Shown one piece after another: positions 7,831 through 11,124 of a stretch of DNA of 11,124 nt. Source of the DNA: Cyanobacteria bacterium UBA8803 (lineage in GTDB: Bacteria; Cyanobacteriota; Cyanobacteriia; Cyanobacteriales; Coleofasciculaceae). The notes beneath the pieces were generated by a model that saw nothing but the letters and a program-made list of their open reading frames with translations, ran no database searches and was not told the DNA's origin. Where the stretch lies: contig DNXU01000119.1 of NCBI GenBank assembly GCA_003505715.1, positions 31,544-42,667 of the forward strand, written 5' to 3'. Position 1 is the stretch's first letter. Each line of letters starts with the position of its first letter. The translations under genes were made by a program, and so were the position numbers.

Positions 7831-8041
7831 TTGATTGCTCCATATATAAATGTGTAGCGATCAGAGAGCCAAGAGAGATGCTATCGTTGAGTGGAGTAGC
7901 CTTGGCTGTATGGGTAATCTAAATGCCGCAGATGAATAGAGGCTGATGTGGAACTGAGAGGCTAATTGGATAATTCTGATAGTTTCCTGAGAAGGATAAT
8001 GTATCTTAGACATAACTAAGATCTTTGCTTCTTCTATTGTG

Positions 8042-8203
8042 ATGGCTAGCCTACCGCATCCCATTCAGTATCAGGGTAGTAAAAGAAACCTGGCATCAAA
8101 CATTCTCAGGTTTTTACCTAATCGGGTAGAGAGGTTGGTAGAACCTTTCGCAGGAACCGCAGCTGTCAGTATTTGGCAAGCGAGGCAATACAACCTTTGG
8201 TAA
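8042..8203 (+). pseudogene. 5' remnant of a D12-class (Dam-like) DNA adenine methyltransferase
   Basis: An ATG reading frame of 53 codons encodes the N-terminus of a D12-class (alpha-type) N6-adenine methyltransferase. The I-Q-Y-Q-G-S-K-R motif X segment is at residues 8-15 and the SAM-binding motif I, E-P-F-A-G-T-A-A-V-S, at 34-43. After S-I (residue 44) the similarity ends and the frame stops nine residues later. The target recognition region and the catalytic D-P-P-Y motif IV are missing, so it cannot be an active enzyme. Full-length members are typically about 260-330 residues. No continuation was found downstream, including beyond the restriction-modification genes. It lies 50 nt upstream of the BamHI-like gene on the same strand, and the break near 8173 probably marks a deletion or insertion joint. 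It is too short to be called by default ORF cutoffs. Confidence 0.82.
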
Positions 8204-8240
8204 TACACTACCTAAACCATAACTGTTCCCGATTATCTCA

Positions 8241-8248
8241 AGTAGGAA
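8241..8248 (+). promoter_or_regulatory. Ribosome binding site of the BamHI-like endonuclease
   Basis: AGTAGGAA ends 5 nt before the ATG at 8254. It supports that start over the in-frame TTG at 8173, which lies inside the methyltransferase remnant and would add 27 residues with no counterpart in BamHI. Confidence 0.6.
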
Positions 8249-8253
8249 CCAGT

Positions 8254-8847
8254 ATGAGAATTACTCAAGAGGTTTCTCTAATTAGTATTGGCAGTTTTGA
8301 AGAATCAAGCGATTGGTTCATTATTCGGACTGAAATTCGTGATGCTATTTCTCTAATCGTTCATCCTCCTGGTACATCAAGCTTTACAATCAATCCCACC
8401 AGGCATGGTAATGGTGTCAAGCCAATTAAAGAAGCTTGCATGGTTGCCCTGAGGGAGCAGTTTGGATGGAGCCTGGAAACTCCGATTCACTATGCGACCA
8501 GATCGCCAGGAAAAGTGGATGCAACAAAAGTTATTGATAACCATCTTTTTGCTCTTGAGTGGGAGACGGGAAATATCTCTTCAAGTCATCGAGCAGTCAA
8601 TAAAATGGTGCTTGGATTGCTACGTGGTGTTTTTTTAGGTGCTGTCTTGGTACTCCCAAGTAGAAAACTTTACTCCTACCTAACCGATCGGATTGGCAAC
8701 TATGAGGAATTGGAGCCATACTTTGATGTTTGGCGAGCAGTCCGGATTGCAGAGGGTTTTCTGGCAATCTTTGTGATTGAACACGATCAAGTAGATAGCA
8801 ATGTACCAACAATCACTAAAGGAACAGATGGTCGTGCATTAGTCTAA
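8254..8847 (+). CDS. Type II restriction endonuclease, BamHI family
   Basis: The 197-residue protein is a BamHI-type endonuclease, expected to act as a dimer cutting GGATCC. Similarity to BamHI runs over nearly the whole length: F-T-I-N-x-T near 44-49, N-G-V-x-P-I-K-E at 53-60, E-T-G-N-I-S-S-x-H-R at 104-113, Y-L-T-D-R at 142-146, E-E-L-E-P-Y-F at 151-157 and S-N-V-P-x-I-x-K-G-x-D-G near 182-193. The catalytic set of BamHI (Glu77, Asp94, Glu111, Glu113) corresponds to Glu75, Asp89, Glu102 and Glu104. BamHI base-contacting residues Asn116, Ser118, Arg122, Asp154 and Arg155 correspond to Asn107, Ser109, Arg113, Asp145 and Arg146, so the specificity is predicted to be the same. It ends shortly after D-G and lacks the C-terminal tail of BamHI (213 residues), resembling the smaller isoschizomer OkrAI. 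It converges with the methyltransferase gene, 17 nt between stops. Confidence 0.92.
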   Translation: MRITQEVSLISIGSFEESSDWFIIRTEIRDAISLIVHPPGTSSFTINPTRHGNGVKPIKEACMVALREQFGWSLETPIHYATRSPGKVDATKVIDNHLFALEWETGNISSSHRAVNKMVLGLLRGVFLGAVLVLPSRKLYSYLTDRIGNYEELEPYFDVWRAVRIAEGFLAIFVIEHDQVDSNVPTITKGTDGRALV

Positions 8848-8864
8848 ATCTTTCTGCATGGAAG

Positions 8865-9851
8865 TTATGTAGAGTAAGTAATTGGTAGTTGCGATCTCAT
8901 GGTTTTGCGTTGCTTTAATTTCTTATTTCCCCTCGCTGATTCCCATTGCTCAATGATGCCATTAGCTAAATCAGTCAATCGTTCTATTGCTGGTTCTGTA
9001 TCGCCAATTTCTGAACCAATCCAGTAACGGTGTAGTTTTTCTGCTGCGTAAAATGTAGTTCCAGATCCTCCAAACGGATCGACCACAATCTGGCCTGGAT
9101 TAGATGCCATAGCAATAATCCGTTCTAGCATAATTGGAGCAAGTTCATTAGGAACTCGCTTTTTATACTGAGGATGCCGAACTGGTGGAATATCAGTCCA
9201 CATTTCCTCAGTTAACGTCCATAAAACTTCAGTAGAATTAGCTTCATTGGCGTCTTCCCAAACATCCTCTGGCATATCCCAGACATCCATTAAATTGATG
9301 CCTTTGTCATTGAGGCTTTTACGATGTCCACCATAGTCACGAATTTCTCCACCACAATGCCGACAAACTTGAATAGGTGTATAAACTTTGTTGAATACTG
9401 CTGGCTCTCCTTTCGTGTAATAAATTAATCCGTAGTGAGCCGGAGACATTTTTTTCCCTCTGGGAAAAGCTTTTGGCATCCTGCAAGCAATCCAATGCCG
9501 AAACCACATACCTCTCTGGTTCAAGTACGCACCATATTCTATGCACCATCTGGGCAGGTTGAATACAAATAAACTTCCACCAGGTTTCAGCACTCGAATG
9601 CTCTCACTAAGCCACTGTTGTGACCAGCCTAAATACTTATCTGCCTCCATCTTATCGCTGACACCTTTACCGTATTCCTTGCCAAGATTAAAGGGTGGGT
9701 CGGCAAACACAAGATCTACACATTGATCGGGCAACACTGACAGAAGTTTAAGACCATCTCCTTGATACAGGATGCCATACTCACTTATGTAAGCCTGTTG
9801 TAGTCCTTGTTGAGCTGCCACATCAGGTGCGATCGCTTGAAATGGGAGCAT
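8865..9851 (-). CDS. Beta-class DNA amino-methyltransferase, probable partner of the BamHI-like enzyme
   Basis: This 328-residue SAM-dependent methyltransferase would protect host DNA by methylating an exocyclic amino group (N6-adenine or N4-cytosine). The motif order is that of the beta class: G-D-G at 31-33, catalytic motif IV D-P-P-F at 51-54, L-K-P-G-G near 88-92, then the target region, motif X (P-N-E-L...I-I-A-M, 234-248) and C-terminal motif I D-P-F-G-G-S-G-T-T at 258-266. Between them sits a C-x2-C-G-G-E-I-R-D-Y-G-G-H segment (Cys163, Cys166, His176), possibly a metal-binding insert. D-P-P-F leans towards adenine, while the well known M.BamHI is an N4-cytosine enzyme; the product is therefore open. 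AAGG about 9 nt before the ATG supports the start. It lies 44 nt after the small HTH gene and faces the endonuclease. The recognition site is inferred from this neighbour only. Confidence 0.9.
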   Translation of the reverse strand: MLPFQAIAPDVAAQQGLQQAYISEYGILYQGDGLKLLSVLPDQCVDLVFADPPFNLGKEYGKGVSDKMEADKYLGWSQQWLSESIRVLKPGGSLFVFNLPRWCIEYGAYLNQRGMWFRHWIACRMPKAFPRGKKMSPAHYGLIYYTKGEPAVFNKVYTPIQVCRHCGGEIRDYGGHRKSLNDKGINLMDVWDMPEDVWEDANEANSTEVLWTLTEEMWTDIPPVRHPQYKKRVPNELAPIMLERIIAMASNPGQIVVDPFGGSGTTFYAAEKLHRYWIGSEIGDTEPAIERLTDLANGIIEQWESARGNKKLKQRKTMRSQLPITYST

Positions 9852-9883
9852 TTACTTAACCTTTAGTACGTTAGTATAGCTTG

Positions 9884-9912
9884 AGTTTATATATTCTATT
9901 GACAATTGTCAA
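9884..9912 (-). promoter_or_regulatory. Predicted methyltransferase promoter
   Basis: On the minus strand a perfect TTGACA (9912-9907) is followed after 17 bp by TAAACT (9889-9884), which matches the -10 consensus at four of six bases. TATAAA at 9891-9886 is an alternative -10 with a 15-bp spacer. The start would fall about 25-30 nt before the methyltransferase ATG. The promoter overlaps the last codons and stop of the HTH gene, so the methyltransferase could be made independently of it. Confidence 0.55.
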
Positions 9913-10144
9913 CAGAGTTTATTTGAGAAGTTGTACTGCGTGGTTGATATGGTTTTCCAGGGGGTTGATTCTTATATCTCTCTACCTCAGCAGTTTCTAT
10001 GTAGTAGTATCGCCCAAGTTTGTGAGCTATAATCTGATGATTCTTAATTAAATCGTGAACTCGTTGGCGGGTTATATCCAGTAGCTTGGCAGTTTGAGCT
10101 ACAGAGAGCAAGTGGAAAGTGTCATTTAAACCGGAGTTTGTCAT
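9896..10144 (-). CDS. Small excisionase/MerR-like helix-turn-helix DNA-binding protein
   Basis: The 82-residue protein carries a winged-HTH of the excisionase (HTH_17) type at about residues 12-57. This has L-L-S-V-A-Q-T-A-K-L-L-D-I-T-R-Q-R-V-H-D-L-I near 12-33, then a wing with H-K-L-G-R-Y-Y-Y-I-E and V-E-R-Y. The C-terminal third is polar, proline-containing and probably unstructured. Such proteins bind DNA in recombination directionality factors and in small regulators. Here it sits upstream of the methyltransferase on the same strand, the place where a controller of a restriction-modification system would be expected, but it is not of the XRE type usual for C proteins. No integrase is visible nearby. 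No Shine-Dalgarno is seen before the ATG at 10144, so translation may be weak. A role as controller is inference; a remnant excisionase from a mobile element is the alternative. Confidence 0.82.
   Translation of the reverse strand: MTNSGLNDTFHLLSVAQTAKLLDITRQRVHDLIKNHQIIAHKLGRYYYIETAEVERYKNQPPGKPYQPRSTTSQINSVDNCQ
9899..9912. promoter_or_regulatory. Perfect 14-bp palindrome, candidate operator
   Basis: TTGACAATTGTCAA is its own reverse complement and includes the -35 hexamer of the predicted methyltransferase promoter. It sits inside the end of the HTH gene (residues S-V-D-N-C). A dimeric regulator, such as the adjacent HTH protein, or the methyltransferase itself, could bind here and block transcription. 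The binding partner is inference. Confidence 0.5.
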
Positions 10145-10174
10145 AGAATGAGAGTGTTTTAGTCATCCAATAGG

Positions 10175-10184
10175 ATAGTACTAT
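10175..10184. promoter_or_regulatory. 10-bp palindrome upstream of the HTH gene
   Basis: ATAGTACTAT is a perfect palindrome 31-40 nt upstream of the HTH start codon. It may be an operator for autoregulation, but a 10-bp AT-rich palindrome could easily be chance. It does not resemble the GACT/AGTC type C-boxes of classical controller proteins. Confidence 0.3.
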
Positions 10185-10210
10185 AGAGCAGTTCTCAGGC
10201 TGAAATGAAC

Positions 10211-10240
10211 ACAGTATTTTTTCTCTTTTTTTAATGCCAA
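10211..10240 (-). promoter_or_regulatory. Possible promoter of the HTH gene
   Basis: On the minus strand TTGGCA (10240-10235) is followed after 18 bp of A-rich sequence by TACTGT (10216-10211). The -35 fits well (five of six), the -10 weakly. Transcription would begin about 60 nt before the HTH ATG, placing the 10175-10184 palindrome in the leader. Confidence 0.3.
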
Positions 10241-10252
10241 GGAATGCCAAGT
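10233..10252. repeat. Tandem 10-bp direct repeat
   Basis: AATGCCAAGG (10233-10242) is followed directly by AATGCCAAGT (10243-10252). On the minus strand the units place two TTGGCA hexamers 10 bp (one helical turn) apart, overlapping the possible HTH promoter. Function unknown. Confidence 0.45.
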
Positions 10253-10270
10253 CAACGAGGAACTGAGTAA

Positions 10271-10295
10271 CCCCCCAACCTTGGGAGACAGGGGG
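10271..10295 (-). terminator. Weak candidate terminator of the [2Fe-2S] reductase gene
   Basis: CCCCC (10271-10275) and GGGGG (10291-10295) can pair around a 15-nt loop, about 30-50 nt past the stop codon of the reductase gene. A competing inner CCCAA/TTGGG pairing exists. Only two T residues follow on the minus strand, so this is not a convincing intrinsic terminator. Confidence 0.2.
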
Positions 10296-10321
10296 ACGAA
10301 TGCGTAAGTCTTGATAATATT

Positions 10322-11124
10322 TTACACGTCGAGAACCACTCTTGAAGTACCTGGCTGAGAAATACAAATCAACACTGAACCTTTATCAATTGCAGCCGTT
10401 GGAGTTTCTTGATAAGCAACTTCCCCTTCTTTAATTTGGCACATACAAGTGCCGCAGATACCTGCACGACAACTGTAGGGAGGATTGATATTGTTGGCTT
10501 CGGCAAATTCTAGGATGCTACCATCCCCCTCGCGCCAAGTTAAAGTTTTGCCAGAGTCGGCAAAGACTATTTCAGCTTGTTTAACTTTGCCATTTGTTAC
10601 TTCAGCAGCAGGTTGCTTCTCCGAGGAGACGTTCATCGGCTTACCAAAGGATTCAAAGAAGACTCGCTCGTCGGGAACTCCCCATTCCTTGAGTCCTGCC
10701 ATGAGAGACTGCATAAAGGGTGGAGAACCACACATGAAAAACTCCGCCTCCGGCCCAACTAACTCTTTAATTAGACTTGCATCTACATAACCAACGCTGT
10801 GGTAATGTCCCTCGTCTTCTGCTCTAGGACGGCTATAACGATAATGTATCTGGAGGTTGGGATTTTGCTGTTGCATCGCCTTTACTTCATCCCGAAAAGC
10901 ATGGAACCTGCCATCTCTGGCACCATGTACGAACCAAATCGGACGATTGGGGTTGAGACGAGTACAGGCTTTTGCCATACTCAGCATAGGAGTAATCCCG
11001 ACACCATTGCTAATCAGTACGGCAGGTATTGACTTGTTAACATCTAGGACAAACTTACCATTGGGTGGCTTCGCTGGAATCACCGCACCTTCTTGAATGC
11101 GATCGTGCATAAAGTTAGAAGTAA
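10322..11124 (-). CDS. Ferredoxin-reductase-type oxidoreductase with C-terminal [2Fe-2S] domain (5' end outside window)
   Basis: This is the C-terminal part of an electron-transfer flavoprotein. The frame stays open to the window edge, and the codons before the internal ATG at 11110 (T-S-N-F) continue the family pattern S-N-x-x-H-D. That ATG is therefore not the start, and the FAD-binding half lies outside. Counting from that Met, the NAD(P)-binding region covers about 28-158, with S-N-G-V-G-I-T-P at 34-41 and F-M-C-G-S-P-P at 125-131. A linker (about 160-175) leads to a plant-type ferredoxin domain with C-x4-C-x2-C (Cys214, 219, 222) and a distal Cys249, the complete [2Fe-2S] ligand set. It would pass electrons from NAD(P)H through flavin to the cluster and on to an unknown partner. 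Hybrid-cluster-protein reductases and oxygenase reductases have this layout. It is on the same strand as the HTH gene, but 177 nt separate them. Confidence 0.88.
   Translation of the reverse strand, partial: TSNFMHDRIQEGAVIPAKPPNGKFVLDVNKSIPAVLISNGVGITPMLSMAKACTRLNPNRPIWFVHGARDGRFHAFRDEVKAMQQQNPNLQIHYRYSRPRAEDEGHYHSVGYVDASLIKELVGPEAEFFMCGSPPFMQSLMAGLKEWGVPDERVFFESFGKPMNVSSEKQPAAEVTNGKVKQAEIVFADSGKTLTWREGDGSILEFAEANNINPPYSCRAGICGTCMCQIKEGEVAYQETPTAAIDKGSVLICISQPGTSRVVLDV

Follow-up and report, generated by a model that had tools for sequence, protein, structure and literature searches.

In an 11,124-nt stretch of the genome of Cyanobacteria bacterium UBA8803 (assembly GCA_003505715.1, contig DNXU01000119.1, positions 31,544 to 42,667; hereafter the window), a locus of three genes is, as we are inclined to read it, a long-resident type II restriction-modification (R-M) system that cuts GGATCC and has a dedicated controller of an unusual class at its methyltransferase promoter. 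The locus consists of a BamHI/OkrAI-type endonuclease gene (R; 8254-8847, plus strand, 197 aa), a DNA methyltransferase gene (M; 8865-9851, minus strand, 328 aa), and a gene for a small helix-turn-helix protein of the HTH_17 family (referred to as the HTH gene; 9896-10144, minus strand, 82 aa). The enzyme pair is ordinary and its layout is of a known kind; what is added is a new conserved candidate controller with a predicted operator. The original prediction, made from the same DNA, had described these three genes, the convergence of R and M with 17 nt between their stop codons, and a small HTH gene preceding M; all of this is borne out by the open reading frames, by the strandless stop-to-stop interval at 8848-8864, and by the Pfam match of the HTH protein to HTH_17 (43.5 bits). 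Its observations are thus confirmed and its interpretation is supported in part; the predicted operator and the exclusivity of the HTH gene to the system, which carry the regulatory case, are additions made here.

The HTH protein is not an XRE-type C protein of the kind that controls many known R-M systems, and three C-protein queries (E <= 1e-4) found no match within 1.5 kb of R in the window locus (L001). Its structure model (pLDDT, the predicted local distance difference test, 73 overall and 84-90 by ten-residue blocks in the core) is a small winged helix, for which phage Xis and BldC are nearest, at a Foldseek E value of just 0.01-0.1. We surveyed 388 genomes of the host's order, of which 46 contain the BamHI family PF02923 and 342 do not. 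The HTH gene (E <= 1e-12) is present in 19 of the 388, all of them among the 46 and none among the 342 (Fisher's exact test, 5e-20). It belongs to the R-M system and, among the genomes searched, is exclusive to it.

The HTH-containing loci, when aligned before M, share the palindrome CTCTATTG-N8-CAATAGAG at a near-constant distance. In the window this palindrome (9894-9917, no strand) agrees at 14 of 16 positions, for which the chance in the window is 0.04; it contains the HTH stop codon, and a repeat search separately found an extended inverted repeat around it (9889-9922). Its left arm contains the TTGACA of the predicted M promoter (9884-9912, minus strand; TTGACA, 17 nt, TAAACT, a consensus match), so that the palindrome covers the -35 hexamer and extends into the spacer. 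Across 24 HTH-containing loci the promoter has a 17-nt spacer in 21 and an exact TTGACA in 19. Operator scores were compared at 37 loci of the cyanobacterial clade with a matched M start (L016, L029, L037, L038 and more distant loci fall outside this set): all 24 loci with HTH, the window included, score 14-16 of 16, and all 13 without it score 8-13. A palindrome measure free of the motif separates the same two groups (9-12 vs 7-9, p 7e-7). Among loci fetched after the motif had been fixed, 13 with HTH score 13-16 and seven without score 8-12; this later set omits 12 second copies and L141-L143, and four of its seven HTH-less loci have a distant endonuclease type.

Since the palindrome overlaps the last HTH codons, coding constraint was tested apart. 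Across 23 HTH genes, pairs that encode the same residue have a codon identity of 0.944 over the five scorable codons at the gene end and of 0.650 over the other 70 (p 0.0015). Three loci (L004, L011, and L056) have an HTH gene too short to reach the palindrome, yet the palindrome is preserved there in non-coding DNA (14, 14, and 16 of 16, respectively).

Several observations weigh against this picture of an operator and its controller. The motif was read from the HTH-containing loci and overlaps HTH codons, so the contrast between loci with and without HTH is partly built in, and all loci scored are relatives. L024, which lacks HTH, scores 13, and L038 (Chloroflexi), in which HTH is reduced to a relic, still has the palindrome (15 of 16). 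HTH is also dispensable: 20 of 39 carriers of the system, the close relatives L006 and L010 among them, have no HTH match. Promoter-like sites in the region number five against 5.5 in shuffles, which is no excess, and no R promoter stands out. Finally, matches with up to three mismatches in the host genome (34) are not enriched over a reversed control (29), so the palindrome is a local site rather than the mark of a regulon. The window has no second copy of it, either close to R or ahead of the HTH gene. In ten relatives (L002, L006, L008, L009, L010, L019, L023, L026, L034, and L036) we noticed by eye a AACTGCACTACTCTTGCGTAGC-like element shortly before the R start; it is missing before R in the window, and in the ten it occurs with or without HTH.

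The relic in L038 may reflect a recent loss of HTH, or it may be a case for another binder. Under the latter, the palindrome would be bound by M, as autorepression, or by a host regulator, and HTH would act elsewhere or not at all. Autorepression through an N-terminal HTH domain is known for some methyltransferases (PMC3874152, partial text); a Pfam scan of the window M found no HTH domain. Further, the palindrome tracks HTH and not M, as 20 HTH-less loci that have M score 8-13, and in the decayed locus of G325 M is down to 31 matched residues, yet HTH and palindrome persist. We therefore regard another binder as improbable. A second possibility is that HTH activates the M promoter in the manner of MerR, so that M is made early with no delay circuit through convergence. 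HTH_17 is distantly akin to MerR-type domains (BmrR and BrlR appear far down the Foldseek list), and the palindrome does extend into the promoter spacer. However, 21 of 24 HTH-containing loci combine near-consensus -35 and -10 hexamers with a spacer of the usual 17 nt, and a palindrome that covers the -35 itself fits repression better, which makes activation an unlikely role. From this arrangement, HTH most probably represses the M promoter.

R matches PF02923 with 262.8 bits (cut-off 22.8) over profile positions 1-157 of 157, and among solved structures it is closest in sequence to OkrAI (3odh, E 7e-65), followed by BamHI (1bam, E 8e-31). The check by structure prediction suggested in the original prediction gives a matching fold: the model (pLDDT 91) has template modeling (TM) scores of 0.90-0.91 to OkrAI, with 55-56% identity in the structural alignment, and 0.88 to BamHI, with BstYI and BglII next. 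All nine catalytic and base-contact residues that it had named are indeed present in the alignment (E75, D89, E102, E104, N107, S109, R113, D145, and R146); which of them contact GGATCC follows its list, and the structural comparison with BamHI is one of folds. D89, E102, E104, N107, S109, D145, and R146 are invariant across 49 aligned endonucleases (the window included), E75 is replaced in four (L020, L024, L039, and L044), and R113 in one (L009).

M matches PF01555 with 135.3 bits and is 44% identical to the M of the BamHI-like locus L049 (Bacillus haynesii), where all 213 of 213 endonuclease residues match BamHI. Its motif IV, DPPF, precedes motif I. M.BamHI produces N4-methylcytosine (m4C); DPPF is common to all 52 aligned M relatives, L049 included, and motif IV therefore cannot tell m4C from N6-methyladenine here. 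The M gene adjoins the R gene in the window, as expected of a type II system, and M lies on the contig of R in 37 of the 38 other carriers of the host's order, G580 having it on another contig. These carriers are the 39 surveyed genomes with a complete or nearly complete R, among which we counted G429, with an open frame of just 162 aa, and G157 and G525, with a partial profile; seven genomes with a partial or broken R were excluded from the carrier test.

The genomes bear the imprint expected of an enzyme acting on GGATCC. The host genome (8.07 Mb) contains four GGATCC and 1011 CCTAGG, a 193-kb sample of host contigs contains none against a Markov expectation of 15.4, and 36 related loci, 387 kb in all, are likewise free of it. 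The four GGATCC of the host are C70:12965, C139:1517, C529:11858, and C607:29388. We considered, and rejected, that GGATCC is the sole avoided palindrome: at least 13 other palindromic hexamers are avoided just as strongly in the host sample, and an R-less relative (G062) has no GGATCC in 392 kb where 23.7 are expected. Both findings count against R as the cause, and carriers were therefore compared with R-less genomes. These other hexamers (GGCGCC, TTCGAA, GCATGC, and GTGCAC among them) are nearly absent from the host sample, a hint that the host has, or once had, many R-M systems.

Median density is 1.56 GGATCC per Mb in the 39 carriers and 10.6 in the 342 genomes without PF02923 (Mann-Whitney p 1.5e-13). 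When genomes are compared within families, an average of 81% of the R-less ones exceed the carrier in GGATCC density, a value that none of 2000 permutations reaches. The control CCTAGG gives p 0.61 in the Mann-Whitney test and 50% within families (941 of 2000 permutations). In a set of 77 genomes, composed of the carriers and 38 R-less relatives hand-picked from the same families, the ratio of carrier to R-less medians is 0.22 for GGATCC, compared to 1.05 for CCTAGG, 0.97 for AGATCT, and 0.97 for TCTAGA. Some results weigh against this: CCTAGG leans slightly in the same direction within families of the 77-genome set (0.612; 110 of 2000), 47 of the 342 R-less genomes have fewer than two GGATCC per Mb, and the carriers G083 (172 per Mb) and G378 (15.7 per Mb) are not depleted. 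In the latter two (L115 and L114, respectively) R and M adjoin without depletion, which points to a recent arrival or an inactive enzyme. A lone M of this kind was rejected as the source of low GGATCC in R-less genomes, as none of 31 few-site genomes searched among the 342 was matched at E <= 1e-60, a strict limit that also failed to recover the M adjoining R in G083, which is 46% identical.

These exceptions, together with the other avoided hexamers and G062, would suit a lineage-wide avoidance of palindromes unrelated to the R-M system. That account is strained by the within-family test, in which carriers fall below their R-less relatives, and by the three other hexamers that show no clear difference, and we consider it very unlikely. 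Avoidance has been reported to grow with the residence time of orthodox type II systems and may mark lost ones (Rusinov and others, PMC4687349); the main text of that paper mentions neither BamHI nor GGATCC nor cyanobacteria. The ghost locus of G325 (L113), with fragments of R and M beside an intact HTH gene and palindrome and with seven GGATCC left in 8.0 Mb, fits avoidance as the trace of a lost system in this sense. From the depletion in carriers, the system has probably been active against GGATCC over a long period. A BamHI-family R-M system, as originally predicted, is thus supported by sequence, by model, and by genome-wide depletion, and the system very probably cuts foreign DNA at GGATCC.

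The layout was originally called non-classical, by comparison with the classical BamHI locus, in which R and M diverge with a C gene between them. That description agrees with L049 and with PMC5333194, in which BamHI is named as divergent and convergent R-M architectures form a described class. The window locus does differ from classical BamHI, yet its layout is not peculiar to this island. Among the 39 carriers, R and M converge in 35, diverge around an XRE-like frame in three (G105, G474, and G542), and are split over two contigs in G580; of the 38 carrier loci in the host's order that can be resolved, 35 are thus convergent, and the idea of a rare layout was rejected, the convergent arrangement being the rule there. 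In a larger set of 93 loci with R, 75 were scored convergent (12 of which repeat a place already counted), 11 divergent, and seven had no M match within reach. The seven include G105, G474, and G542, whose endonucleases were at first candidates for having no partner; this was rejected once a divergent methyltransferase, which in G542 occupies two open frames, was found along with the XRE-like frame between. These three loci (L142, L143, and L141, respectively) are divergent XRE-type BamHI loci inside the host's order, alongside the convergent majority. Two further loci (L039 and L040) have a BamHI-type endonuclease and an XRE C match but no M match; the gene divergent to R in L039 is a different PF01555 methyltransferase, and L040 has a similar gene there.

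An XRE C match lies near R in all 11 loci scored divergent, and the 75 convergent loci comprise 41 with the HTH gene, five with an XRE match, and 29 with neither; HTH and an XRE C gene never occur together in any of the 93. A quick methyltransferase tree (45 loci) unites the divergent loci in a single group (support 99). In the endonuclease tree, layout switches three times, at joins that long branches leave unsure, and the presence of HTH changes three times on both trees.

The convergent junction is tight. The median gap between R and M is 17 nt over 32 pairs, compared to 132 nt for other convergent neighbours (n=29, four of them at 40 nt or less). Terminator-like sites are not in excess at R/M junctions, with four of 33 after R (shuffles 4.0) and none of 33 after M (shuffles 1.8), and no terminator-like site was found at 7850-10350 of the window. 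Given a short junction and no terminator excess, transcripts of M should run antisense into R. The anatomy thus allows convergent interference as a delay of R, which had been the original proposal, the interference itself being something we infer.

On this basis, a sequence of events can be proposed. The HTH protein would bind the palindrome as a dimer; in doing so it would repress the M promoter and also form a roadblock that limits its own full-length message. Upon entry into a new host, where there would be no HTH protein, the M promoter would be fully on and M would be made. As HTH accumulates, the M promoter would be shut, antisense interference would end, and R might then appear late, which is the most tentative step. 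That HTH repression relieves convergent interference on R is accordingly offered as a possibility to which we would give somewhat less than even weight. We hold it rather doubtful that all of this adds up to a new family of R-M controllers, in which an Xis/BldC-type repressor specific to convergent BamHI-type systems, bound to a palindrome where its own gene ends, would shut the M promoter, roadblock its own message, and turn R on as antisense transcription ends, a single operator giving M first and R later.

A further alternative gives layout and HTH no part in timing: the R-M system would be an ordinary one, its tight convergent junction a matter of compactness, and its expression set by constitutive promoters. 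The 29 convergent loci with neither HTH nor an XRE C match persist all the same, and carriers without an HTH match are also depleted of GGATCC (e.g., G292 and G514). This alternative accounts poorly for an HTH gene linked exclusively to the system and for the conservation of the predicted operator, and we think it rather unlikely.

The anatomy proposed for the HTH repressor is paralleled by that of C.Kpn2I, an unrelated protein. The binding site of C.Kpn2I lies within its own gene; from there it inhibits the strong M promoter, probably at the -35, and serves as a roadblock (PMC6237814). In both, the controller site lies in the controller's own gene and over the M promoter, in the window by position alone and with repression predicted. 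According to the same source, the endonuclease promoter of Kpn2I is independent of the controller, and the promoters of its C-protein gene diverge from that of M, whereas the Xis/BldC-type gene of the window runs in the direction of M. With AhdI and Esp1396I, the window shares the convergence of R and M; these systems differ in having an XRE-type C gene cotranscribed with R (PMC5333194), whereas the window has no XRE match near R and its candidate regulator lies before M. Convergent systems are already published in AhdI, Esp1396I, and Kpn2I. BamHI itself (Bacillus amyloliquefaciens H) has the same endonuclease family and residues, a homologous methyltransferase, and motif IV DPPF, and differs in being divergent with a C gene (PMC5333194), where the window is convergent with HTH_17 before M and no XRE match. 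A comparable switch, between divergent with C and convergent without C, is described for the PvuII family, for which the partial text of PMC3850674 contains no HTH_17 gene.

The window HTH also has weak similarity to MAD1 of the MADS defence system, another small HTH protein (PADLOC mad1, E 0.00025), at an NCBIfam score far under the cut-off (16.5 of 80 bits); MAD1 presumably accompanies a methyltransferase, as its NCBIfam name suggests. Among the matches listed from one open-licence literature collection, there was no relevant work on OkrAI, the closest solved structure to the window R (ten of 895 listed), and nothing on this system under BamHI-type systems or GGATCC in cyanobacteria, where a paper on R-M systems of bloom-forming cyanobacteria (PMC8262939) was listed. 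For MerR-type, excisionase-type, or winged-helix controllers of R-M systems, the one paper listed concerns TraN.

Directly upstream of R, outside the working system, lies the decayed N-terminus of a D12 (Dam-family) methyltransferase (8039-8203, plus strand; PF02086 positions 1-41 of 253, E 3e-10), with no counterpart in the 57 loci compared. In an empty-site comparison that reached one side, similarity to the R-less genome G481 ends at window position 8001, with pheS-like DNA beyond. Taken together, the Dam-family remnant and the break in similarity suggest that elements have perhaps arrived here one after another. Plasmids, too, carry the BamHI-type family outside cyanobacteria (four records), and phage records gave no match.

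R-M systems need their protective enzyme before the cutter, and the HTH gene with its predicted operator may represent a new mode of timing; the predicted operator likewise points to a possible second class of R-M controllers. Within one endonuclease family we find four set-ups (divergent with XRE C, convergent with XRE C, convergent with HTH_17, and convergent with neither), and as HTH and C never occur together, the BamHI family is a natural comparison for the exchange of layouts and controllers. For the organism, the host genome is nearly free of GGATCC targets, and BamHI sites in incoming DNA are likely to hinder transformation of such strains.

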